Shown piece by piece: positions 1 to 44,176 of a DNA stretch of 44,176 bases (its first letter is position 1; each line of letters starts with the position of its first letter). Below the pieces are notes generated by a model. It ran no database searches, had not been told where the DNA came from, and worked only from the letters and a program-made list of their open reading frames with translations. Both the position numbers and the translations under genes were made by a program. This stretch comes from a virus: the IMG/VR virus record IMGVR_UViG_3300028802_000031, positions 1 through 44,176 of that record; one strand, 5' to 3'.

Positions 1-126
1 GTGCGCGAGTTCACCACTGGTAGGAACTGTATGTTGGCGGTCGACGAGTCAGTACAAATCAAAGGGCACAATACCCTACAAACCAAAGCTGTGCTCGACC
101 TTATCAGTATGTTTAAATATCGCCGC
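1..126. repeat. Left copy of 126-bp terminal direct repeat
   Basis: Bases 1-126 are identical to 44047-44172. The repeat lies wholly inside a helicase reading frame that is open across the junction. This is what a circular assembly overlap looks like, so it is most likely the mark of a circular or circularly permuted genome rather than a biological terminal repeat. Confidence 0.93.
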
Positions 127-1068
127 ATATTGTCCGGGAAGCCAGTCGTACAAGGACCACATGACCTTTGGGCTCAGATGCGCGCTATCGGCGCGATTAA
201 TATGAAATACTACCCATTCAAGACTACTTTCTGCCGGATGGGCGGATTCAAGGGCAAGAAAGTGATTGGCGCTCAGAATGAGGAGATCCTTGCCGGGTAC
301 ATCGAGAAGTTCATATTCCGGGCGTCCAAGAAAGATTGGACCGACCTGCCGCCCAAGATGTACACTTCCAGGGAGTATACTCTAACCCCCAAGCTGGCGG
401 CCATGTATAAGTCCATGGAGGATGACTTTATCCTTTGGATTAACGAATCCGAAAATGTGGCCGTGGATGCCTTCATCACCAAATACATAAAGCTGGCCCA
501 AATCCAATCTGGGTTCATTATTCGGGAGAATGGCAAAGTAGAAGAATTGGTACCCCCGGAAGAGAATCCGCGGTTTACCCTAGTGAAAGATATAGTGGCG
601 GAAGTGCCGGGTAAGGTGATCGTGCCGTATGTTCACCGCTACACCCTTAGCCTGCTCCACCGAGCCCTAGCCGAATACAACCCCGTGCACATAAGTGGCG
701 GGATGGAAGGTCACGAAATACAGCGCACCAAGGACACGTTCAACAACGACCCCAGCTGTCGAGTTATTCTAATACAGTCCCGAGCGGGAAAGTACGGGCA
801 CACACTTCTGGGCGGACAAGACCCCGCAGACCGTTGCAGCACAATGATCTTTGCAGAAAATAGCTATTCGTTAGACGACCGCTCTCAAATTGAGGATCGA
901 ATGCATCGACATGGGCAGACAGCGGATAGCTGTCTTTATATTGATGTATGGGGCACAAGGCTAGATCATAGGACAACGCTGGCTCTGCAAAATAAAGAGT
1001 CAATAGCCCAAGCAGTATTCGCTTACTTCGGTAAGCGTCACTCATCGTGTTCTTCGATCAACCCCTGA
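1..1068 (+). CDS. SNF2-type DNA helicase, C-terminal part (continues from 43702-44046)
   Basis: This is the C-terminal 355 residues of a superfamily 2 helicase; joined in frame to the 115 residues encoded at 43702-44046 it gives about 470 aa. The Walker B-like motif reads DESVQIK (joined residues 130-136), where SNF2 proteins have DEAH followed by K. Near the end is motif VI, DRMHRHGQ (joined residues about 414-421), with its arginine finger. Compact SNF2-like helicases of this size are common in phage replication modules next to a VRR-NUC nuclease and a PolA polymerase, as here. They are thought to remodel DNA during replication or recombination. The stop lies 31 bp inside the convergent ejection-protein gene. 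The GTG at base 1 is not the true start. Confidence 0.88.
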   Translation: MREFTTGRNCMLAVDESVQIKGHNTLQTKAVLDLISMFKYRRILSGKPVVQGPHDLWAQMRAIGAINMKYYPFKTTFCRMGGFKGKKVIGAQNEEILAGYIEKFIFRASKKDWTDLPPKMYTSREYTLTPKLAAMYKSMEDDFILWINESENVAVDAFITKYIKLAQIQSGFIIRENGKVEELVPPEENPRFTLVKDIVAEVPGKVIVPYVHRYTLSLLHRALAEYNPVHISGGMEGHEIQRTKDTFNNDPSCRVILIQSRAGKYGHTLLGGQDPADRCSTMIFAENSYSLDDRSQIEDRMHRHGQTADSCLYIDVWGTRLDHRTTLALQNKESIAQAVFAYFGKRHSSCSSINP

Positions 1069-21237: not shown

Positions 21238-21266
21238 ATCATAGCACGCACGCGCGGGCGTGTCAA
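21238..21266 (-). promoter_or_regulatory. Promoter for terminase and head operon (TTGACA-17-TATGAT)
   Basis: -35 TTGACA at 21266-21261, 17-bp spacer ending GCGTGC, -10 TATGAT at 21243-21238. The predicted start falls at about 21232-21231, on the terS ATG. Confidence 0.8.
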
Positions 21267-22797: not shown

Positions 22798-23217
22798 ATG
22801 GAAGACCACAACCAAGAAGTGCAGATCGACGCCGAAGTTGCAGAGGACAACGCAAAGCGCAACTCGTGCGTGCAAGTCGCCTACAAGACACGCTACGCCG
22901 AACGCGCGGTCGCCGCAGGCACCAAACGCAAGGCCGCGCAGCGCTCCTGCTGGGACTGGCTGGCACAAACGATCGCTGGCGAGTGCCTGGTCGGGAAGGA
23001 CCGGATCGACATCGACAAGTTCCGCGCCCTGCTCGTTGCCAACGGCCTCGAGGAGAAGCCGTGGTGGAACACCAGGACGAAGGGCTGGGAAGGCCGGTTC
23101 CGGATGTCCGGTCGCCTCGCCCTCCAGCGGGTCGTAGCCGAAGCGGGCGTTCTGCTCACGACAGACGGCGACGAGCTGGTTCCGCCCACCGAGTGGGTGG
23201 CGAAGCACACGCACTAG
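22798..23217 (+). CDS. Phage-specific paralogue family member A, 139 aa
   Basis: The first early gene. A four-member family in this genome shares an RxxWDWL-like helix, an ID(I)DxFxxLLxANG segment and the box KGWEGR(L/F)RM(S/T)GR followed by LxxxV. Here these are CWDWLAQTI (about 51-59), IDIDKFRALLVANGL (about 70-84) and TKGWEGRFRMSGR (about 93-105). ATG follows ACGGAGC at a normal distance. The fold looks helical with a basic, Gly-containing box that could bind nucleic acid. I recognise no characterised homologue. Expression from the first early promoter suggests a take-over or regulatory role; this is inference. Confidence 0.75.
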   Translation: MEDHNQEVQIDAEVAEDNAKRNSCVQVAYKTRYAERAVAAGTKRKAAQRSCWDWLAQTIAGECLVGKDRIDIDKFRALLVANGLEEKPWWNTRTKGWEGRFRMSGRLALQRVVAEAGVLLTTDGDELVPPTEWVAKHTH

Positions 23218-24082: not shown

Positions 24083-24111
24083 TTGACAAGCGGCAGACGC
24101 TGTGTTAAAAT
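24083..24111 (+). promoter_or_regulatory. Early promoter (TTGACA-17-TAAAAT)
   Basis: TTGACA 24083-24088, 17-bp spacer, TAAAAT 24106-24111. The next gene's ATG is only 6 nt past the -10, so the message should be leaderless. Confidence 0.8.
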
Positions 24112-29773: not shown

Positions 29774-30034
29774 ATGAGTAAGTATAGAACAGTATTTCTA
29801 GTTCCGACTAAAGTCGTGGACATAGCGGAAGAATTCAAAATTACGACCGGGTATCAAACTAGAACACCTCACAATCCGGGGGAGTTCGAACATCCGGTGT
29901 ATAAAACGAGCCAAGGGTGGTTCGTACTATTCGAGGGGTCACGTGAACGACTATTCGTGGGGGACAGCAAGCCAGCCGACTTGAACATCGGGGATAAAGT
30001 CATGATAGCTGTCATGAAGGAAATAGGCAAATGA
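29774..30034 (+). CDS. Small beta-rich early protein, 86 aa
   Basis: GGGAGG precedes ATG, only about 12 bp from the predicted transcript start. It is a beta-rich fold (YRTVFLVPTKVVDI; GWFVLFEGSRERLFVGDSK), ending in a charged helix. The SKPADLNIGDKVMIAVM segment resembles an OB/SH3-like strand set. The function is unknown. ATGA overlap with the next gene. Confidence 0.6.
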   Translation: MSKYRTVFLVPTKVVDIAEEFKITTGYQTRTPHNPGEFEHPVYKTSQGWFVLFEGSRERLFVGDSKPADLNIGDKVMIAVMKEIGK

Positions 30035-30915
30035 GCGTTCACCATTCGAAGCTAAAGCAAGCGATGCAAATCGGCTGCTACGTAAGTATGACGCCCGACA
30101 AGGGGGTGCGCATCTTCTGGCCCGAACGTTCGGTTGAGCTATTCGCTCCTACCGTCAACGACGCGTTGGAGGAAATGCGCGCGGTGCAGAGCATACTTCG
30201 CATGTCCCCCGACTATAAAGTTATAACTGCAACTACGATGCTAGTTACTGTGCTGAATGAGCAGCACAAACAAATGGTGGGGACGCCAGCCCTTCCCACT
30301 GACATTCTACGCATGATGGAGGCGAATGAGCATGGATGGGAAGAAGCATGGGCAGCAGAACCCGAAACGAAAGACGACCAGTTTCATGTACGTGGAGTAC
30401 CAAAACGAGGCGGGGAGGCTTATAACGAGGGGGTTCCAGCTGCCGATTGTCCTTACCCTGACGGAAGCCCCGAAGCGGACCAGTGGAATGACGAGTGGGA
30501 CAAAGCCGCCGATGCGGAGGTAGGCGACCGAAAGGCCGACGGAATTGGGTCAGTCGTCACCAACCGATACCGCGCGAACTATGCCGAGGCGGGTCACCCT
30601 TCGCATTGTGGGGACGAGTTGGCTGTAATGCTCAACAGCATCTGCAATAACAAGGCGGGCACAAATCTCGAGCTATTCGAGGCGATCTGCGCGGCGAACG
30701 GGGTCAGCCTCGCCAAGTACAAGCGCGACACCAAGGGCTGGCAAGGACGCTTGCGGATGACAGGGCGAAACCTGCTAGCTAAGAAAGTACGCGAGAACAA
30801 GGGCAGCTTGACAATGCCGCAGAACATATGGCCCGGGTATTACCAACTCAGTCAAGAGTGGGTGGATCAAGCGACGGTGAAGTATAAACCAAAGCGGGGA
30901 CAAGATGACACTTGA
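30031..30915 (+). CDS. Paralogue family member C with Rmf-like insert, 294 aa
   Basis: Three parts. Residues 1-115 are an N-terminal domain of unknown fold (PDKGVRIFWPERSVELFA...). Residues about 127-160 (AYNEGVPAADCPYPDGSPEA, then DQWNDEWDKA) resemble the Rmf/CrpP ribosome-modulation fold: A-x-x-x-G, a C/NPY motif and W-x-x-x-W. Residues about 175-290 are the paralogue domain: NRYRANYAEAG, NLELFEAICAANGV, TKGWQGRLRMTGR. It is the longest family member. If the Rmf-like part is real it could target ribosomes. Coupled by ATGA upstream and overlapping the next gene by 11 bp. Confidence 0.68.
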   Translation: MSVHHSKLKQAMQIGCYVSMTPDKGVRIFWPERSVELFAPTVNDALEEMRAVQSILRMSPDYKVITATTMLVTVLNEQHKQMVGTPALPTDILRMMEANEHGWEEAWAAEPETKDDQFHVRGVPKRGGEAYNEGVPAADCPYPDGSPEADQWNDEWDKAADAEVGDRKADGIGSVVTNRYRANYAEAGHPSHCGDELAVMLNSICNNKAGTNLELFEAICAANGVSLAKYKRDTKGWQGRLRMTGRNLLAKKVRENKGSLTMPQNIWPGYYQLSQEWVDQATVKYKPKRGQDDT

Positions 30916-32206: not shown

Positions 32207-34744
32207 ATGGAACTTATCAAGGGTGGCTATTCGTTCAGCACGACCGACGAGCGAATCGTAAATCAGCAACGTTCCATCACCACTCAAGTTAACAACAATT
32301 TTATTCAAGTAGGCGCTACCTTCTTGCAAGTGGCGGCTAAGAATCCATTCGACTCCGATTGGTTCAACAAGAAATTCCGAGACACTAACCTTCAAAGTTG
32401 GATCGACAATCCCGAATACAGGCAGTTGAACCTAGGCTTCAACCTCCAATTCGGTTGGCTTGATGTTGACATTGACTCCGAAGACCCGCGCTATAATCAG
32501 TGTGTATTCAAGGCCATGAATTTCCTTGGCGTCGACACACGATTCGCATTTGGGCGAATGTCACGCCAAGTCCCTTCCCACATCATGGTACAGCTAAACG
32601 ATACGGACCTTGCTAATTATGATGAAATGAAGGCATTTGAGCCGAAGGGGTTTAAAATAGGCGATTATAGGTTTAAGTCTGAGCTTCGCTCGATGGGACC
32701 GGCTATTAACACATCAAATGCAATTAAGCAAGCACGTCAAACTGTGGCACCGGGCAGTATTTATGCCCACAAGACTGAGCCAGGTAAGTATGACATTTCG
32801 GTGTGGTATGATAAGGACAGTAAAGTAGCTACTTCGATAGGCGAAATAGCAGTTACTACCCCGCGCAGGACTTCGTTTGAAACATTAATAACTGGCATCG
32901 CATTCGGCACATTTCTGTATATAATTCAGCCTCATTGGGTTGAGGGCGGAAGACAAAGCTTAGCAATCAAAGTAGCTGGTTGGCTTGCTCGTTTGGTGCG
33001 CGAAAGTCATGGTATAAACGAGAATGACTCGGTATCGCGCGGCACTTACTGTCCGATCGGCAAACCAGAAACAGCCGAGGCGATGATCGAATTTGTGTGT
33101 GCGGAAACGGGCGACCCCGAAGCTAACATGAGAAAGCGCACATTCCGCGACGCACTGAGAAAGCTAGAAAACAATCCCGACGCTCGTATTCCAGGCTGGC
33201 CTGCTCTAGAAGCAGATATAGGAACCGAGCCGATGTACGCCCTCCGCGCTGTATTTATGCCGGGTGTGGACGTTTCACCTTTAACAAAGATGGCCGATTG
33301 CTACATATTCGACGATACCAACGATAGGTATGTTGATAGAGAGCGATTCATTACTATGCTGTCTTTCAATCACACCAAGGATGAATTGGAGCGCAGACAC
33401 ATCAATGACTTTATAGAGATAGCGGGTAAGATGAAACCTCTATTCAGAGTATTTGAAACATCGCCGCTACGAAGGCGAATTAGTGGTAGTAATCTATACC
33501 CAGACTTCCCACCGGGGTCTATCATTCGCGTAACACGCGGCGGTGATATAGTTCCAGATGATGAAGATGCTGAGCCTGGAACTGTCACTATGTTCAACAC
33601 GTGGCGCGGCTGGCCAATCAAGCCGACTAAGAACTACAATCCAGCACTAGGGGCGAAATGCCGCGAAATGATGGAGCAGTTGTTTAAGTATTTGTGTAGA
33701 GACAATCCAGCACAGATTAATTGGCTTATGGAGTGGATCGCGTGGACCGTACAGCACCCGGGGCAGAAGCAGCAAGTGGCACCTGTATTCGTCGGAGGAC
33801 AGGGTGTCGGCAAATCATTCTTTGGTAACACATTCCTGGAACAACTATTTCAAGACCAACACGGGTTGGCATCCCCCAAGATTTTAGAGGGTACATTCTC
33901 AGTTGAGCCATTCATCAATAAGATGTTTGTATTTATAGACGAAGCTAAATTTCATAGCGAATCTGCTACAGACGAAATTAAGAAGCTAATTCGCAACGAA
34001 CGAATAGGAGGGGCAGAGAAGTTCCAATCCGCAAAGAGTTACCGAATTTTCTCGCGGGTTATATTCGCCTCAAATCGATTCGACATGAATCTCGGACAAC
34101 AAAACATACAAGATCGCGCTTTATTTTATATCAAGACATACGATAAAGACTACCTTAAATTGGGCGAGGCTCAGTTTAAAGATTGGGCAGTTACTATCAA
34201 GCCATTCTTCGATGAGTTCAACGCGCTACTAATGCGGCGGGATGTTAAAGAACATTTCATGCACATTTTCAGCACAATAGAAGTAGACCGCCACACATTA
34301 GAAAATACTGCTTTATCAAGTAGCAACGACAAGGTTATCATTGAGTCAAATATGACATACCCAAGACGAGTGGCTAAGGCAATCATTGAAGAGGGCCGCA
34401 TCTGGGAAGATTTGGATTTATCCGCCCCATTCACTCAATCCCAATTCAATGAGCGAGTATCTAATATTTGTGACTCGATGCGCATCAGATTTGTCCAACC
34501 AAGGGAAGTTATGAAAGAATTGGATGACGCTGGTCTTATTGAGCCATTCACCTCTGACAGGAGAATTATGTTCAGATTTAAGTACAAGATCGGTACCGTA
34601 ACTGAGCAGTTTGGGTTGGCCATTGGTGTTAAAATGACCCCTTCGTTCGTATTCGACGCTGATGATTTCGGCGAGAACAAGTCAGAATTCATAGGGGCGA
34701 AGTCGTGGCGCGGTAATGCTAACCGAATGCGAGGAGGTATATAA
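32207..34744 (+). CDS. Bifunctional AEP primase / SF3-type helicase, 845 aa
   Basis: The N-terminal third is an archaeo-eukaryotic primase-polymerase domain. DVDID (86-90) carries the metal-binding acids, SRQVPSH (119-125) the basic/His motif, and a QTVAPGSIYAHK segment (178-189) the usual third motif. The C-terminal half (DUF5906/D5-like) is a superfamily 3 helicase: Walker A GGQGVGKS (about 528-535), Walker B FIDEAKF (about 575), sensor ASNRFD (about 620). It would unwind and prime phage DNA for the PolA polymerase. The size is normal for this fusion. Codon use is more AT-leaning than its neighbours. Start: AGGGGG before ATG, after a structured leader. Confidence 0.85.
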   Translation: MELIKGGYSFSTTDERIVNQQRSITTQVNNNFIQVGATFLQVAAKNPFDSDWFNKKFRDTNLQSWIDNPEYRQLNLGFNLQFGWLDVDIDSEDPRYNQCVFKAMNFLGVDTRFAFGRMSRQVPSHIMVQLNDTDLANYDEMKAFEPKGFKIGDYRFKSELRSMGPAINTSNAIKQARQTVAPGSIYAHKTEPGKYDISVWYDKDSKVATSIGEIAVTTPRRTSFETLITGIAFGTFLYIIQPHWVEGGRQSLAIKVAGWLARLVRESHGINENDSVSRGTYCPIGKPETAEAMIEFVCAETGDPEANMRKRTFRDALRKLENNPDARIPGWPALEADIGTEPMYALRAVFMPGVDVSPLTKMADCYIFDDTNDRYVDRERFITMLSFNHTKDELERRHINDFIEIAGKMKPLFRVFETSPLRRRISGSNLYPDFPPGSIIRVTRGGDIVPDDEDAEPGTVTMFNTWRGWPIKPTKNYNPALGAKCREMMEQLFKYLCRDNPAQINWLMEWIAWTVQHPGQKQQVAPVFVGGQGVGKSFFGNTFLEQLFQDQHGLASPKILEGTFSVEPFINKMFVFIDEAKFHSESATDEIKKLIRNERIGGAEKFQSAKSYRIFSRVIFASNRFDMNLGQQNIQDRALFYIKTYDKDYLKLGEAQFKDWAVTIKPFFDEFNALLMRRDVKEHFMHIFSTIEVDRHTLENTALSSSNDKVIIESNMTYPRRVAKAIIEEGRIWEDLDLSAPFTQSQFNERVSNICDSMRIRFVQPREVMKELDDAGLIEPFTSDRRIMFRFKYKIGTVTEQFGLAIGVKMTPSFVFDADDFGENKSEFIGAKSWRGNANRMRGGI

Positions 34745-34835: not shown

Positions 34836-35246
34836 ATGAGTAACGAACAGACTGCTGCGCCGACGGAGCCGAAAGTAACCAAGTCTATCGTTCCGTCCAA
34901 GTATTCCGGCCGCTACAAGAACGGCGGCGAGGATGCGCTCGCGCAATTCATCAAATCGCAGTGCACCGACAAGGAAGGGTTCAACTTCGACGACTTCTTC
35001 ATGCTGTGCGAGAAAAACGGGCTGCCCCCCGAGAAGGTTGAGCACTACAAGGGGCAGGTTTCCGAGAGGCGGCACGGTGCCGAAGGACGCGCTCGCATGA
35101 CCCTCCGGAACATGCTGGCGACCATCGTTCGCAAGGAAGGCAAGGCGATCGGCCTCGACGGTCAAGAGTACGAGGTCAGCCTCCCGAAGCCCGCTCTTAC
35201 TGGCGCGGCGAAGGAAGCTGCCGAAGCGAAGGCCAACGCAGCCTAA
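34836..35246 (+). CDS. Paralogue family member D, 136 aa
   Basis: CAGGAGAG precedes ATG. The most divergent member of the family: SKYSGRYKNGGEDALAQFI (about 20-38), FNFDDFFMLCEKNGL (about 48-62) and a shortened box GAEGRARMTLRN (78-89) where the others have KGWEGRLRMTGR. An Ala-rich C-terminus follows. It is alone between a strong promoter and a strong terminator, suggesting high, separately controlled expression. The function is unknown. The conserved basic Gly-Arg box may contact nucleic acid. Confidence 0.72.
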   Translation: MSNEQTAAPTEPKVTKSIVPSKYSGRYKNGGEDALAQFIKSQCTDKEGFNFDDFFMLCEKNGLPPEKVEHYKGQVSERRHGAEGRARMTLRNMLATIVRKEGKAIGLDGQEYEVSLPKPALTGAAKEAAEAKANAA

Positions 35247-36981: not shown

Positions 36982-38775
36982 ATGGAGCAAGGAATTGACC
37001 CGGGATTGGCGCTGCGCATCGTAAGCGACGATCACGAAGCCATAGCATTCGACACCGAAACCACCGGGATAACGGTGAAGGACAAGGTGTGCGGTTATGT
37101 GATCACCAACAATACTCATTCGCTGTACTGTCCTGTCCGACACGAAGCAGGGGGGAACATACCCGATGCTGGGCAATTCGAACTTTCTCTTAATGCGGCT
37201 TTCAGAGATCGAGGCCGCCATGGCTTCCGTACCGTGGGGCATAACCTTGGCTTTGATCTTCGCATTTGTCTTAGGCATGCTGTTAGCCTTAACGGACCAC
37301 TAGAAGATACGATGATCAACGAGGCGATCATCAGCGACATAACACAAGGATACAGCCTCGAAGATTGCTGCGCGCGGCGAAAATTGACGCTCAAGAAGGG
37401 TAGCGAGGTCTACGCGGAACTAGCGCGACGATTCGGTGGATTGCCTGATCGCAAGCAAATGAAGAACTTTTGGAGGCTCGAAGGTGATCATCCAACCGTG
37501 GTCGAGTACGCAACCGGAGACGGAATCTCCACCCTCGAACTTTGGGCTGCCCAACAACCTATTCTGGATGGAAACGACCTACGCCGTGCATGGCGTTTGG
37601 AGTGTGAGTTGCTTCCGTACGTGGCTCGAATGCACCACCGGGGCCTTAAGATCGACCCCGATTACTCAGGAAGAGTTGTACAAGAAATAAACGAGGCCGT
37701 GGCCGAAAAGAGCAAGGTATTTGTGCCCGGGTTCAATGTTAGGTCGCCGAAAGCAGTGGAGCAACTGTACCGAGTGAACGGCTACCAGGATCAACAATTC
37801 GCCCGTACCGATAGTGGTGCTATTTCGTTCACCGAAAAGTGGCTGGCCACCAACGAAATTGGCGGCGCTATTCTCGGGGTCCGCAGACTGGAGAAAGCAC
37901 GTGACAGCTTCATCACCCCCCTCATCGATACACATAATATTAACGGACGAGTTCACCCAATTCTTAACCAATCCAAATCTGACGACTATGGAGTTGCAGG
38001 TGTCAGGTTCTCATGCTCTGACCCTAACCTTCAAGCCTTCCCCAAGCGTAACATCGACGTTGGCCGTGTCGTACGACGACTTGTTGTGCCTGATCAAGGA
38101 TTTGTTATTGAAGAAGCAGATGCTAAGCAACAAGAACCCCGCCTCTTCACACACTATTCAGGCGATCCTGCACTACTTGACGGATACCGAAACGGAACTA
38201 TGGATATCCATGATAGAGCCTCCCAAATCCTCAGCTTAGATCGCGACACCGCTAAGAGGATGTCGATGGGGATGCTAACCATGATGTCTCCGCCCACCCT
38301 CGCAGGGCACATGCGTTGGTCACTGGAGCAAGCGCGCGATGCTCACCGAGCGTTTCTTACGGACGCGTTCCCTGATATTAAGAAATTTCAGGATACGGCA
38401 GTATCGGTATTCAAGAGGCGGGGCTATGTCAAAACTATCCTCGGTCGCAGGGCGTATTGCGACGATCCCCGGTTTGCGTACCGTGCAGTCTCAAGGATCA
38501 TCCAGAATGTCGGCGGCGAACACATCAAACTCTGCATCCTCCGCGCGTGCCAATACGAAGATGCATACCCGGATGATCTACAAGTACTACTTACTATCCA
38601 CGACAGCTTACTGTGGCAACGAAATCCAGCGCACGATCCGGGGCCTATCTTACGATCGATTGAGGGTGTTGCCCAGGAACTCGAACTTGCTGTTCCAATA
38701 CCATTCGGCTTAGGTAGCGGCCCCACTTGGGCTCATGCCTCGTACGGCGATAAAATGGATACTTATGATGAATGA
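36982..38775 (+). CDS. PolA-family DNA polymerase with 3'-5' exonuclease, 597 aa (DpoZ candidate)
   Basis: The replicative polymerase. The exonuclease domain is intact: DTETTG (24-29), HNLGFD (87-92), YATGD (176-180). The polymerase palm keeps motif A Asp380 with Glu385 and Arg387 (DAKQQEPR; the usual Tyr-Ser is Ala-Lys). Motif B is unusual: K425-RMS-M429-G-ML-T433-M, so the Phe/Tyr762-type and Tyr766-type positions (E. coli numbering) are Met and Thr. Motif C is HDS (540-542) instead of HDE. Since purZ and mazZ lie 3.4 kb downstream, a Z-using DpoZ-type enzyme is likely, but this cannot be told from sequence alone. Confidence 0.85.
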   Translation: MEQGIDPGLALRIVSDDHEAIAFDTETTGITVKDKVCGYVITNNTHSLYCPVRHEAGGNIPDAGQFELSLNAAFRDRGRHGFRTVGHNLGFDLRICLRHAVSLNGPLEDTMINEAIISDITQGYSLEDCCARRKLTLKKGSEVYAELARRFGGLPDRKQMKNFWRLEGDHPTVVEYATGDGISTLELWAAQQPILDGNDLRRAWRLECELLPYVARMHHRGLKIDPDYSGRVVQEINEAVAEKSKVFVPGFNVRSPKAVEQLYRVNGYQDQQFARTDSGAISFTEKWLATNEIGGAILGVRRLEKARDSFITPLIDTHNINGRVHPILNQSKSDDYGVAGVRFSCSDPNLQAFPKRNIDVGRVVRRLVVPDQGFVIEEADAKQQEPRLFTHYSGDPALLDGYRNGTMDIHDRASQILSLDRDTAKRMSMGMLTMMSPPTLAGHMRWSLEQARDAHRAFLTDAFPDIKKFQDTAVSVFKRRGYVKTILGRRAYCDDPRFAYRAVSRIIQNVGGEHIKLCILRACQYEDAYPDDLQVLLTIHDSLLWQRNPAHDPGPILRSIEGVAQELELAVPIPFGLGSGPTWAHASYGDKMDTYDE

Positions 38776-39234: not shown

Positions 39235-40005
39235 ATGCGCAAGTATGTAGCTGCAGCGTTGCTGGCGCTGATTGCACTACCAGCACAGGCCGATAATATC
39301 GACCTGTTCGCAGTAACAGGGAGCACCAGTGCACTTACGCTGGTACTTGCCCCACCCCCTGGAAATCAACCGCAGAACATTCAGTGCTTGATCTGCGGCA
39401 CGAACCAGCCGGGGCAACAGGGGGACTTCGGCTACAACAACTACGCCCAAACTGGCAACGCGACCTCGTTCATCGAGTTCTCGTCGTCAACTGTTGGAGC
39501 CAAACTGGACCAGAACGTCATCGGGACCGGCTACAATCTGTCGTTCCTGCAGACGTACTTGCTGTCTCAGAATGCGTTGAACACCGCCGGTGCCTTCTCA
39601 ATCGGTATCGACGTGAACACTGCGACTGGCGCAGGGCCGGAGGTTTTGGAAGCCTTCGTCATTCTGAACCTGACGCAGATGACCGTGATTGCCCAGTATT
39701 CGTTGTTCGATCCGGGTGGCACAGCTTTGCCAACCTTCAACAATGGTACTGGCTTCCCGGACTATCTGTTGACCAACATCCAGTTGGATCGCGGTGACAT
39801 CGCAATTGGCGATCAGATCGTGTTCGCCGCGCGGTGGAGCAATGCTTCAGACGGTGCCGAGAGCTTCTTTCTTGTGCCGAATGTGGCAGCTGTCCCCGGC
39901 CCTGTCGTGGGCATGGGGCTGCCGGGTCTCATCGTCGCGATGGGCGGGCTCATTGCCCTCGCGCGTCGACGCCGCAACCACAACAGCGTTGTAGGCGCTG
40001 TCTGA
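39235..40005 (+). CDS. Exported protein with PEP-CTERM-like C-terminal sorting tail, 256 aa
   Basis: ATG at 39235 (GGAAG upstream) begins a clear signal peptide, cleaved after AQA (about residue 19). The mature part is Asn/Thr/Gly-rich and beta-like, with one CLICG pair. The C-terminus has VPGP (220-223), LPGL (229-232), a hydrophobic helix and RRRR (244-247). That is the order motif - helix - basic cluster of PEP-CTERM/VPEID-type sorting signals, and of similar tails I know from Bradyrhizobium-like bacteria. It should be anchored in or sorted through the host membrane. A phage gene of this kind is unusual; probably host-derived and envelope-modifying. Confidence 0.7.
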   Translation: MRKYVAAALLALIALPAQADNIDLFAVTGSTSALTLVLAPPPGNQPQNIQCLICGTNQPGQQGDFGYNNYAQTGNATSFIEFSSSTVGAKLDQNVIGTGYNLSFLQTYLLSQNALNTAGAFSIGIDVNTATGAGPEVLEAFVILNLTQMTVIAQYSLFDPGGTALPTFNNGTGFPDYLLTNIQLDRGDIAIGDQIVFAARWSNASDGAESFFLVPNVAAVPGPVVGMGLPGLIVAMGGLIALARRRRNHNSVVGAV

Positions 40006-40446: not shown

Positions 40447-40719
40447 ATGAAAACTCTGATCGCACTACTTCTCACGACGACAGTAGCCGTGGCACAACCA
40501 CCATTGGATTTTATGTCCCCGATAATGCCAGAATTTCGGATGCCAACCACCATTCCGTGGACAGAGAATGGCAATGTTCTGGGCACGGCGACCACAACCG
40601 ATGGCAGCGTTGTCTATCTGCGCGACAAGAAGGGCGTTCACATCGCCACTGTCGTAATTAGGAATGGCCATCGAATAATCCTCGATCCCAACGGCAAGCC
40701 GTTTGGTGCAAAAGAATGA
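40447..40719 (+). CDS. Exported small protein, 90 aa
   Basis: ACGGAG precedes ATG. The signal peptide MKTLIALLLTTTVAVA is followed by a short Pro/Met-rich linker and a beta-rich domain (GNVLGTATTTDGSVVYLRDK; GVHIATVVIRNGHRIIL). No Cys. The third predicted secreted protein of this cluster. Its stop overlaps the Zn-finger gene as ATGA. The function is unknown; a periplasmic inhibitor or envelope modifier is possible. Confidence 0.65.
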   Translation: MKTLIALLLTTTVAVAQPPLDFMSPIMPEFRMPTTIPWTENGNVLGTATTTDGSVVYLRDKKGVHIATVVIRNGHRIILDPNGKPFGAKE

Positions 40720-41105
40720 TTCGGTATGTCAAGAAATTCAAGCGCCCACCTCGGATAAAGGGTGCTTGCGGGTGCAGAGGGTGCCAAAACCCAGTTATGG
40801 CGCGCGGATGGTGTTACGAGCATCACCCCCGCTGCGACATTTGCGGTGAATTGTCCCATGCTCGAAATAAGTGCAATCGGCACTACCTCGAATGGTACAC
40901 AACTGGCGACCGGAATTTGAAAGTTCCGAGAACGCAGAAGAGACATAAATCACAGCTGCCAACATGCACCGAAGAGGGGTGTGGCAGGAACACGATAGCG
41001 CGTAACATGTGTATGAAACACTACAAACAGTGGCAAAGAGAGGGGTTCAAATGCCTTACCGTCCCGGCGACCCAACGAGAGAGGTCGAAGCACGAATTGA
41101 AGTAA
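40716..41105 (+). CDS. Zinc-finger protein with two Cys/His clusters, 129 aa
   Basis: Cluster 1: C18/C20, C23, C33, H36/H37, C40, C43, C53, H56. Cluster 2: C84, C89, C99, H102 (CTEEGCGRNTIARNMCMKH). The second repeat is the DNA-recognition element often attached to phage HNH endonucleases, but the HNH core itself is absent. So this looks like a stand-alone or degenerate form, or a DNA-binding accessory. Basic residues are plentiful. It is ATGA-coupled to the exported protein before it and overlaps the next gene by 55 bp. Confidence 0.65.
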   Translation: MIRYVKKFKRPPRIKGACGCRGCQNPVMARGWCYEHHPRCDICGELSHARNKCNRHYLEWYTTGDRNLKVPRTQKRHKSQLPTCTEEGCGRNTIARNMCMKHYKQWQREGFKCLTVPATQRERSKHELK

Positions 41106-41423: not shown

Positions 41424-41805
41424 GGCCACAATCAAGCGCCGAATGGTTAAGTCTATTCAGGAAGCGATGGGCTACGCTCGCCGCATTGAGGATCAATTCG
41501 GTGTGGGAATAATGGACACCATTCTCATCCCGGTTGGCCTGCCCGTATTTTTCGCCGAGGTTAAGATCATTCGGGGTCCCACATTCGGCCCAACACCCAG
41601 ACAGTTTGAGGAACTGCGAAGAGTGAAATTCGCAGCAACGCCGAATGACCACGCTATTCCCATCATGATTGGGTGGCGCGACAACACGTACTACTTCCAC
41701 CCGCCAGCCGAAAATATCGACCCCCGGGACTGCTTTTCGGTGACGACGACCGAAATGTCCTTCAACGACCAACTGTGCCAATACTGGTACTCAACGAGGA
41801 AATGA
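41416..41805 (+). CDS. VRR-NUC-type nuclease, 129 aa
   Basis: A PD-(D/E)XK fold nuclease. Asp34 in GIMDTILIP, then FFAEVK with Glu48-Val-Lys50 (the catalytic E-x-K), and GPTPRQ (58-63) with the Gln of the VRR-NUC family. Stand-alone VRR-NUC proteins of about 100-130 aa are common in phage replication modules beside SNF2-like helicases, and are thought to process branched DNA. This length fits. It is packed into the purZ-upstream operon. Confidence 0.82.
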   Translation: MNEATIKRRMVKSIQEAMGYARRIEDQFGVGIMDTILIPVGLPVFFAEVKIIRGPTFGPTPRQFEELRRVKFAATPNDHAIPIMIGWRDNTYYFHPPAENIDPRDCFSVTTTEMSFNDQLCQYWYSTRK

Positions 41806-42146
41806 TGAAAAAGCCAGCACAAACAAGACCAGTGGATGTTGCCGAACCCACGGAGACTACCGCGCAGAGCACGCTGAGAGCGGCGCTGGAGCAAGTATCA
41901 ACCAAGAACCGAGTTCACGGCGACACCGATCCATTATTTCGGATGATCGCCGAATTGTGGTCTATCTACGTATTCCACGCCAACACGGTCCGCCCAGAAA
42001 TTACTGTGTCGCCGCACGATGTAGCGCAACTTATGGTTCTACTCAAGATCGCTCGATCCGTTTACGGCTATTCAGCCGACAACTATGTAGACGAAGGCGG
42101 GTACGCGGCATTGGCCAGCCAGTTTAGAACGAGGGAGCCCGAGTAA
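41802..42146 (+). CDS. DUF6378-like protein, 114 aa
   Basis: Starts at ATGATG (41802 or 41805) with ACGAGGA upstream. The sequence phrase NRVHGDTDPLFRMIAELWSI, then ITVSPHDVAQLMVLLKIARS and DNYVDEGGYAAL, matches my recollection of the DUF6378 family found in many phages. The helical layout recalls MazG-like nucleotide-binding bundles. Its place directly before the purZ promoter makes a nucleotide-metabolism role possible, but this is not established. Confidence 0.68.
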   Translation: MMKKPAQTRPVDVAEPTETTAQSTLRAALEQVSTKNRVHGDTDPLFRMIAELWSIYVFHANTVRPEITVSPHDVAQLMVLLKIARSVYGYSADNYVDEGGYAALASQFRTREPE

Positions 42147-42165: not shown

Positions 42166-42194
42166 TTGACAGGGACTGCGGGATGTGGTATCAT
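42166..42194 (+). promoter_or_regulatory. Promoter of purZ-mazZ (TTGACA-17-TATCAT)
   Basis: TTGACA 42166-42171, spacer ending ATGTGG, TATCAT 42189-42194, about 20 nt before the purZ ATG. The nucleotide-modification genes thus have their own copy of the common promoter. Confidence 0.85.
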
Positions 42195-42212
42195 GAGACA
42201 TGGGAGTGAGTG

Positions 42213-43292
42213 ATGAGACTATTCGAACCTCTAGGCGTACACTGCTTGGTGGATGGCCAGTTCGGCTCCACCGGTAAGGGTGCCCTCGCCGCTTGGCTGG
42301 CGCTCCGCGCGTGCGAAGATGGCTACATAAATCATTTTAGCGGGTCGATCTACAGCGGAGGCCCCAACAGCGGGCACACTTGCTACTATGGCGACGAGAA
42401 GATCATCCTGAAACAGCTGCCAACATTCGGAGTGTATGCCGCCAAGCTTGGGTACCCGGTGCCGATATATCTTTCTGCCGGGGCAATTATCGATCGGGAC
42501 TGCTTGAGAGTGGAAGCCTCCCTACACCCCCAAGTTCGCATCTTCGTTCACCCGAATGCTGCCATCGTAACCGACGAGGATAAGAAGGCGGAGGAATCTG
42601 GCTCTATAGCGGAAGTAGCGGGTACAAGGTCTGGTACGGGAGCAGCGCTCGCGCGGAAGATAATGCGGGAGCCCAAGGCCATCGCCGTCAATTCGCTTGG
42701 TCGGATAGCCGAAAATGTGGTGATACAAGAGCACCGGATAAAACCCGACCGGAATGCCTACTTCATGGAAGTGGCGCAGGGGTTCAGCTTGGGGATCAAT
42801 TCACAATTCTATCCGAAAGTGACCAGCCGGGAATGTACTGTAATGCAAGGGATGGCGGATGCCCGCCTTCCTGCCCGGTCGCTCGCCAAGGTTTACATGG
42901 CTGTCAGAACCTACCCCATTCGGGTCGGCAATGTCGACGGTCATTCTAGCGGAGAGTGGTACGTAGATCAAGTGGAAACTAATTGGGAAGCTCTGGGCCT
43001 ATCACCGGAGCGAACCACCGTAACAAATCGTGTGCGGAGGGTTGCCACGTTCTCACCCATGCAATTCTTCGAGGCAGTGCGCGCCAACGACCCCGATTGG
43101 GTGTTCATAAGCCACATGGACTATCTGGGGCAAGCAGCTGGCGACATGCTAGTCAAGGAGTTGAATAACTACTCCCATCAATTGGGCATAGGTTTTGGTA
43201 TCATAGTTGGATGCGGACCCAAAGTCAGCGAAATAACCGTCATAAAGGACCATAGCAACTATGGCAACAACTATCGAAATGAAGGTACCTGA
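42213..43292 (+). CDS. purZ: PurZ: 2-aminoadenylosuccinate synthetase, 359 aa
   Basis: A PurA-like GTP/ATP-dependent ligase. In PurZ enzymes the substrate is dGMP plus aspartate, giving the precursor of 2-aminoadenine (Z). Visible: P-loop GSTGKG (18-23), where bacterial PurA has GDEGKG, so the catalytic Asp is Ser19. This Ser is a PurZ mark. Also His55 in NSGHT, GTRSGTG (137-143), VAQGFSL (187-193), YPIRVG (234-239) and TTVTNRVRRV (268-277), all in PurA order. Length (359) is that of viral PurZ rather than bacterial PurA (about 430). Start: ATG 42213 after GGGAG, rather than GTG 42210. It overlaps mazZ by 32 bp. Confidence 0.92.
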   Translation: MRLFEPLGVHCLVDGQFGSTGKGALAAWLALRACEDGYINHFSGSIYSGGPNSGHTCYYGDEKIILKQLPTFGVYAAKLGYPVPIYLSAGAIIDRDCLRVEASLHPQVRIFVHPNAAIVTDEDKKAEESGSIAEVAGTRSGTGAALARKIMREPKAIAVNSLGRIAENVVIQEHRIKPDRNAYFMEVAQGFSLGINSQFYPKVTSRECTVMQGMADARLPARSLAKVYMAVRTYPIRVGNVDGHSSGEWYVDQVETNWEALGLSPERTTVTNRVRRVATFSPMQFFEAVRANDPDWVFISHMDYLGQAAGDMLVKELNNYSHQLGIGFGIIVGCGPKVSEITVIKDHSNYGNNYRNEGT

Positions 43293-43584
43293 TTCGATCG
43301 ATAAGTTCAGCACGTATCTGTATGAGTTCTTCGACCTCATGCTGCATAAGCTGGACGTCAACAGCCACAAGGATACCCCGAGCAAGGAGTCCCTTGGGCG
43401 GATCATGGAACTTCTGCTAGACGAAGTGGTAGAGTTCGAAGACCAGCTAAAGGAGGATAAATTCGACCTCAATTCGCTGGTAGAACTGGCGGATCAGGCG
43501 AACTTTTCGTTCCTGGCCTTCGTTGCGCTGCGTAAAGATGGGGTGGGTGATGACGATCCGAAAGGTGACTCTAAACTTGGATGA
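43261..43584 (+). CDS. mazZ: MazZ: MazG-like nucleotide pyrophosphohydrolase, 107 aa
   Basis: An all-helical MazG-type enzyme. The metal-binding motif is DEVVE (54-58), followed after 16 residues by E75-x-x-D78 in LVELAD, fitting the MazG pattern E-E-x-x-E ... E-x-x-D. In Z-phages MazZ cuts dGTP (and dATP) to monophosphate, giving dGMP for PurZ. It overlaps the end of purZ by 32 bp and has no strong ribosome site, so translation is probably coupled to purZ. Function is inferred from motif plus neighbour; specificity cannot be read. Confidence 0.78.
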   Translation: MATTIEMKVPDSIDKFSTYLYEFFDLMLHKLDVNSHKDTPSKESLGRIMELLLDEVVEFEDQLKEDKFDLNSLVELADQANFSFLAFVALRKDGVGDDDPKGDSKLG

Positions 43585-43714
43585 AGAAGCCTGCAAGTGG
43601 TTGGAGGAAGTGTACGGGGAAACCTGGAAGCAGCGAATGGAGCAGCACATCCTCAATGAGGTTAGGCTGCGGAGCCGTGACGCTTTAAAGATGAGGGAAA
43701 AATGGGACTACTAG
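43550..43714 (+). CDS. Small RHH-like protein, 54 aa
   Basis: ATG at 43550 has GGGGTGGG upstream and opens inside the end of mazZ (35 bp overlap). It starts with a strand (TIRKVTLNLDEEA) followed by two helices (CKWLEEVYGETWKQRMEQHI; LNEVRLRSRDALK), which resembles a short ribbon-helix-helix DNA-binding protein. Its end overlaps the helicase start by 13 bp. No family is assigned. Confidence 0.55.
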   Translation: MTIRKVTLNLDEEACKWLEEVYGETWKQRMEQHILNEVRLRSRDALKMREKWDY

Positions 43715-44176
43715 AAGTTCAAAAGAAGGGGCTGGAGGCCGGGATGGGGAAGCCCGGCTTCGCCTACTACATGGACATGGGCCTCGGCAAAACATTGCTG
43801 ACGCTAACCGAATTCTTGGAATACGTGAAACAGGGCGAAGCTACCCGGATGGTGGTTATCTGCCCCAACAACTTCAAGACTGGCTGGGTTGATGAAATAG
43901 TAAAGTACAACCTGAACGTTCACCCGTTCGTTTTCAATTCCGGTGCCGATTATGAGAATAGCCAGTTCTTGAAGACTAAATACCAAAAGCCACCCGTGCT
44001 TATCGTGAACTACGAGGCAATACGTAAGAGTGGTGTAAAACATTTTGTGCGCGAGTTCACCACTGGTAGGAACTGTATGTTGGCGGTCGACGAGTCAGTA
44101 CAAATCAAAGGGCACAATACCCTACAAACCAAAGCTGTGCTCGACCTTATCAGTATGTTTAAATATCGCCGCCTGC
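43702..44176 (+). CDS. SNF2-type DNA helicase, N-terminal part (continues at base 1)
   Basis: Starts at ATG 43702 with GAGGGAAA upstream. It encodes the helicase's first lobe: a Q-motif-like start (MGLLEVQKKGLEAG), Walker A MGLGKT (residues 26-31), motif Ia CPNNF (about 55), and NYEAIRKS (about 102-109). After residue 115 the frame is identical to bases 1-126, so the gene continues at base 1 and ends at 1068. The last four bases (44173-44176, CTGC) do not match ATAT at 127-130 and break the sequence there, which looks like a contig-end error. Confidence 0.88.
   Translation, partial: MGLLEVQKKGLEAGMGKPGFAYYMDMGLGKTLLTLTEFLEYVKQGEATRMVVICPNNFKTGWVDEIVKYNLNVHPFVFNSGADYENSQFLKTKYQKPPVLIVNYEAIRKSGVKHFVREFTTGRNCMLAVDESVQIKGHNTLQTKAVLDLISMFKYRRL
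44047..44172. repeat. Right copy of 126-bp terminal direct repeat
   Basis: Identical to 1-126; bases 44173-44176 differ. See the left copy. Removing one copy gives a genome unit of 44,046 bp. Confidence 0.93.

Follow-up and report, generated by a model that had tools for sequence, protein, structure and literature searches.

The purZ locus and its genome

The window, by which we mean the whole 44,176-nucleotide viral stretch from IMG/VR record IMGVR_UViG_3300028802_000031, carries on its plus strand a 359-aa purZ gene (42213-43292), for which the ATG at 42213, with GGGAG 6-7 nt upstream, is a likelier start than the alternative GTG at 42210. The product contains the P-loop GSTGKG (42264-42281, +; context VDGQFGSTGKG), in which Ser19 replaces the catalytic Asp of PurA; this site is Ser in 91 of 91 phage or contig rows and Asp in PurA. 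The protein matched PHROG_1211 (PurZ) with an E-value of 1.8e-51 and the NCBIfam PurZ model NF038379 at 4.5e-64 and 216 bits, which falls short of the 300 bits that the model strictly requires for naming, as compared with 120 and 61 bits for the PurA models. In the PDB the best matches were phiVC8 PurZ (8.5e-44) and S-2L PurZ (4e-40), with archaeal PurA at 2e-16. In a tree built by a quick search with SH-aLRT support only and one PurA sequence as outgroup, the protein grouped with phage PurZ, apart from PurZ0 and far from E. coli PurA. The original prediction had taken Ser19 as the mark of a PurZ-type enzyme and had proposed a phylogeny against PurZ and PurA; profiles, structures and tree all agree with it, and the protein is filed here as a predicted PurZ. 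Its NSGHT motif (42366-42380) has Ser in 71 of 74 PurZ proteins resembling that of Ochrobactrum phage vB_OspP_OH (OH-like PurZ) and Ala (N-A-G-H-T) in the other PurZ and PurA examined; this Ser/Ala position is a dGMP-pocket residue.

The 3' end of purZ is overlapped by 32 nt by the gene of a 107-aa protein (43261-43584, +) carrying ExxE...ExxD, the MazG-motif protein that had been predicted there. Single-sequence searches with this candidate against Pfam, PHROGs, NCBIfam, PDB and phages gave no match. It could be aligned with OH gp33, phiVC8 p26 and ZP6 gp22; eight residues are invariant, including those of ExxE and ExxD (E55, E58, E75 and D78 being invariant across the window, phiVC8, ZP6 and OH), and a profile of the four proteins matched the MazG-like PDB entries 2p06 (1.8e-4) and 2yxh (0.0097). 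Comparison of MazZ-2 with MazZ-1 by hhalign gave a probability of 1%, and the family assignment therefore rests on the phiVC8-type alignment. The product is a MazZ-2-like member of the MazG superfamily, with a predicted dGTPase activity.

Directly upstream of purZ lies a DUF6378 protein (41805-42146, +) that is kept there in relatives: it adjoins purZ in 67 of 73 loci and is near or upstream of it in 70, a linkage almost as tight as that of mazZ to purZ. PurZ, DUF6378 and MazZ-2 are conserved near the OH-like polymerase in dozens of IMG/VR contigs, and DUF6378 may be a hitherto overlooked component of the Z (2-aminoadenine) system. Its identification as a MazG- or DUF5664-like NTPase found no support, the AF2 model being a helical bundle with no convincing Foldseek/VIA-align match. 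Burkholderia phage Bm1 and Vibrio phage K300 have weak DUF6378 relatives close to their clusters.

The promoter predicted before purZ corresponds to a TG-extended TTGACA-N17-TATCAT site at 42166-42194 (+) that matches 11 of 12 consensus positions; it is a consensus match only, and the window has about ten TTGACA-N17 sites in all. Promoter-like TTGACA-N17-TAnnnT sites were noted at 24083, 25259, 25599, 28206, 29728, 32088, 34769, 35517 and 42166 on the plus strand and at 21266, 16518 and 13722 on the minus strand. One domain occurs in several scattered copies (22798-23208, 30031-30903 and 34845-35156 on the plus strand and 24894-24514 on the minus strand), related to OH gp04, gp15 and gp23, and a probable HNH endonuclease (40716-41105; PHROG 2.7e-9) lies between polymerase and purZ. 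Among OH-like Z-phages, many have a gene whose product terminates in a canonical PEP-CTERM sorting signal (L027:8247-8912, L117:7655-8395, L133:7517-8434, L025:7969-8709 and others), with matches to PEPxxWA-CTERM NF035944 at 6e-11 for L027 and to PF07589 at 1.2e-7 for L117; such a protein stands between polymerase and purZ in 12 of 116 loci, some of them from overlapping records. The window protein at 39235-40005 has a similar VPGP...RRRR tail and no PEP-CTERM HMM match, and a brief literature search returned no account of PEP-CTERM proteins carried by phages.

Bases 1-126 recur without mismatch at 44047-44172, and three of the four terminal contig bases deviate. This is a contig-end overlap of about 126 bp, and the genome is complete with a unique length of about 44,046 bp, so that the absence of a gene can be assessed. 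An SNF2-type helicase gene (43702-44176, +) runs on across the junction into bases 1-1068 (+), a remainder that includes the repeated bases 1-126. The SU10-type virion named in the original prediction was recovered in a Pfam scan (SU10_portal 1.5e-161, SU10_MCP 1.2e-83), and the same kind of scan found no nucleotide-pool enzymes among the 47 other ORFs of the window. The closest relative, in keeping with the probable alphaproteobacterial host named in that prediction, is phage OH (Wolominvirus OH; NC_070933; PMC7139368), with identities of 54% for terminase, 74% for capsid, 60% for polymerase, 53% for PurZ and 49% for primase, the last at the primase-helicase (32207-34744, +; OH gp22). Synteny is nearly genome-wide, OH itself carries purZ-mazZ-datZ, and the window shows the Wolominvirus-like combination of head genes of SU10 type with a gene order like that of OH. 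The description of OH makes no mention of 2-aminoadenine (PMC7139368), and OH was named in 2021 by Czernecki et al. among the MazZ-2 phages carrying datZ, mazZ and purZ (PMC8342488). The suggestion of a distinct new lineage of Z-phage was accordingly dropped: the lineage is already known, a Z system having been predicted earlier for its nearest cultured relative.

A search of prokaryotic genomes for relatives that would name the host gave no close one, and the prokaryotic side of the PurZ search gave only distant PurZ in contigs of metagenome-assembled genomes. Eight PurZ-bearing contigs (L154-L161) are binned into bacterial genomes of this kind; five also carry datZ, and they are therefore probably phage contigs inside bins.

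The donor-base pocket of PurZ

In S-2L PurZ the donor adenine is held by N305, F306 and Q308 (PMC8342488). The pocket of the window protein reads S300-H301-x-D303 (43110-43121, +), with an Asp as in PurA and PurZ0; most PurZ read N-F-x-N/Q, and T-K/M-x-D is the reading in E. coli PurA and two PurZ0. The Asp is present in 35 of 74 OH-like PurZ, and in a tree, again from a quick search, built without the pocket columns 33 of these 35 fell inside one nested clade (34 rows, SH-aLRT 95), indicating that Asp was regained within ATP-type PurZ. Since the window PurZ is nested in the PurZ clade, its own Asp looks like a later reversion. PurZ0 reportedly uses GTP and, because of Asp303, the window enzyme is predicted to use GTP rather than ATP as donor. 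The donor preferences appear reversed in the results of PMC12884076, the introduction of which gives ATP for PurZ. Comparison of DutZ, DUF5664 and MazZ-1 with the window gave chance-level matches only.

The PurA-like pocket, together with the occurrence of auxiliary purine genes in phages, would fit an adenylosuccinate synthetase of PurA type that raises the supply of ordinary adenine nucleotides and leaves the DNA normal. We regard this as highly improbable, given the Ser found in place of the PurA Asp in every phage or contig row, the scores of PurZ models and structures far above those of PurA, and the adjoining MazZ-2.

The datZ position and the DNA polymerase

In OH, datZ lies between mazZ and the helicase; at this position the window has a 54-aa ORF (43550-43714, +), hereafter the slot protein, in the place that datZ takes in OH and in the relative L003; AF2 models it as a single helix. 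A ribbon-helix-helix regulator was considered for it and, in light of that model, not adopted. An HMM of 11 phage DatZ proteins found no datZ in the cyclised window, with L003 and OH the only matches (1e-54), and tblastn with the DatZ of S-2L, phiVC8, OH and L003 gave only chance matches to the window, the controls having worked. As the triad of datZ, mazZ and purZ that defines a Z-cluster (PMC8342488) lacks one member in this closed genome, we do not file the locus as a complete Z-cluster.

Scans of IMG/VR gave 76 loci when run with PurZ and 78 when run with the polymerase. The purZ-helicase interval could be read in 63 relatives, a count that includes near-duplicates and metagenomic contigs that may be fragments: 31 had the slot protein without datZ, 29 datZ without the slot protein, three neither and none both, so that datZ is missing there in 34 of 63. 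A further 13 large purZ-bearing records (37-45 kb) have no datZ anywhere, and six controls contain it. On the PurZ tree the datZ state changes 8-9 times, at least four of them on well supported branches. datZ is retained both in L003, closest to the window by PurZ, and in L061, closest by polymerase; the loss or swap in the window therefore looks recent. The pocket-Asp subclade is also the one with many datZ losses; coupled evolution of the two traits was considered and rejected, independent pairs giving no support.

One consequence could be mixed virion DNA, in which Z replaces only part of A, perhaps enough of it to block restriction. Apart from the missing gene itself, in a complete genome and in many relatives, this would accord with the lower substitution seen for the S-2L system in E. 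coli when datZ or mazZ was omitted (PMC8342488) and with the insertion of some A by phiVC8 DpoZ at physiological dATP (PMC8599892). We nevertheless think it somewhat unlikely, as the polymerase itself may be selective enough and as selection on purZ, mazZ-2 and the polymerase in datZ-less pairs is still strongly purifying (omega 0.09-0.20, 0.04-0.23 and 0.05-0.11, respectively). Slightly less probable again is a substitute for DatZ, whether the slot protein, DUF6378 or a host dATPase. The mutual exclusion of slot protein and datZ across the 63 loci and the tight linkage of DUF6378 to purZ speak for a substitute, but the slot protein is 54-70 aa long, is modelled as one helix with no enzyme fold, and is missing from three datZ-less loci, and DUF6378 also occurs in datZ-positive phages and has a model that matches no known enzyme.

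The PolA-type polymerase predicted 3.4 kb upstream is present as a family A DNA polymerase with a 3'-5' exonuclease (36982-38775, +). It scored 244 bits with the NCBIfam DpoZ model, short of the naming cut-off for DpoZ, versus 164 bits for ordinary Pol I. Its Thr433 (codon 38278-38280, +) corresponds to Tyr766 of E. coli Pol I and is Phe in DpoZ. In the E. coli enzyme Tyr766 is in contact with the steric gate, and replacing it by Ser makes replication less faithful. Among 117 polymerases of the clade this helix O residue is Thr in 115, Ser in OH and Asn in L139; outside the clade it is Tyr in seven non-Z polymerases and Phe in ten DpoZ of both groups. The features characteristic of phiVC8-like DpoZ are Phe in helix O and three polymerase-domain insertions (PMC8599892), of which the window polymerase has insertion 1 by length and lacks 2 and 3; because of Thr433 and these two missing insertions, its sequence indicates that it is not a canonical phiVC8-like DpoZ. 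In quickly searched trees, with SH-aLRT as the sole measure of support, the polymerases formed a third, separate clade beside DpoZ-1 and DpoZ-2 (SH-aLRT 100); by the AU test this clade may or may not be sister to DpoZ-2.

The 46.5-kb relative L139 has the same polymerase-nuclease-helicase order and lacks purZ, mazZ, datZ and DUF6378; it offers a natural control for Z-phage studies. We rejected the idea that Thr433 marks Z use specifically: Asn occupies this site in L139, which has no purZ, and a helix O without its aromatic residue does not therefore prove that Z is used. L139 is also what a decaying Z system could lead to, with datZ lost first and the remainder going. Such decay is most improbable here, since the window genes are free of stops and frameshifts and open frames with low dN/dS persist in many datZ-less pairs; the low omega values of purZ, mazZ-2 and polymerase also speak against it.

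The predicted Z pathway and its relation to known systems

Our preferred reading, held with considerable though not complete confidence, is that a virulent, SU10-like podovirus related to OH makes dZTP and puts it into its DNA, with dATP excluded in some way other than by DatZ. MazZ-2 would convert dGTP to dGMP, and PurZ would join dGMP and aspartate into N6-succino-2-amino-dAMP with a nucleoside triphosphate donor, predicted to be of the GTP type; host enzymes would then yield dZTP, as established for phiVC8, and the PolA-type polymerase would insert it opposite T. With no dATPase DatZ in the genome, dATP has to be kept out by other means, whether by the polymerase, by PurZ/MazZ flux or by some further factor. 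Synthesis and incorporation of dZTP are likely, and the virion DNA most likely contains Z. Against this reading stand a polymerase without the phiVC8 DpoZ hallmarks, the preference of which for Z is only predicted, the missed NCBIfam cut-offs for PurZ and DpoZ, and the Asn of the L139 polymerase at the same site. The original prediction of a Z-DNA system was the right reading, given PurZ, the MazZ-type protein, the SU10-like virion and the kinship with an alphaproteobacterial phage; a replacement of A by Z throughout the DNA cannot be assumed, because datZ is missing from a complete genome.

As defined, the Z-cluster has three genes, with DatZ removing dATP, and the repeated absence of datZ from intact genomes in which purZ, mazZ and polymerase are still selected is a natural experiment. 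It opens the question of how polymerases pick Z over A, with Thr, Ser or Asn for Tyr or Phe in helix O and two phiVC8 insertions fewer, and that of why most PurZ use ATP when one clade went back to Asp. The triad serves to make Z-DNA in bacteria, and a version without the dATPase would be of practical interest too. More tentatively, the lineage may be a widespread environmental one of Z-phages that have no dATPase, a third type of Z-polymerase without the helix-O aromatic residue, and a PurZ reverted from ATP to GTP.

Compared with the Z-clusters of phiVC8 and S-2L, the window shares a PurZ with Ser and a MazZ just downstream of purZ, of the MazZ-2 type as in phiVC8, but it has no datZ, NSGHT in place of NAGHT, and the pocket S-H-x-D in place of N-F-x-N/Q. 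Its polymerase resembles phiVC8 DpoZ (DpoZ-2; PMC8599892) in being a family A enzyme with an exonuclease domain, the motif C HDS and a position near purZ, and differs in having Thr433 where DpoZ has Phe459, in an identity of only about 28% and in belonging to another clade. With the PurZ0 of Arthrobacter and Gordonia phages the window protein has in common the donor-pocket Asp and the P-loop Ser, whereas it is nested in the PurZ clade. OH shares gene order, virion module and the DUF6378-purZ-mazZ-2-helicase arrangement, but retains datZ, lacks the slot protein, and has the donor pocket N-F-x-N and Ser in helix O, where the window has S-H-x-D and Thr. What is new relative to these known systems is the complete genome without datZ, the third polymerase clade and the S-H-x-D donor pocket.
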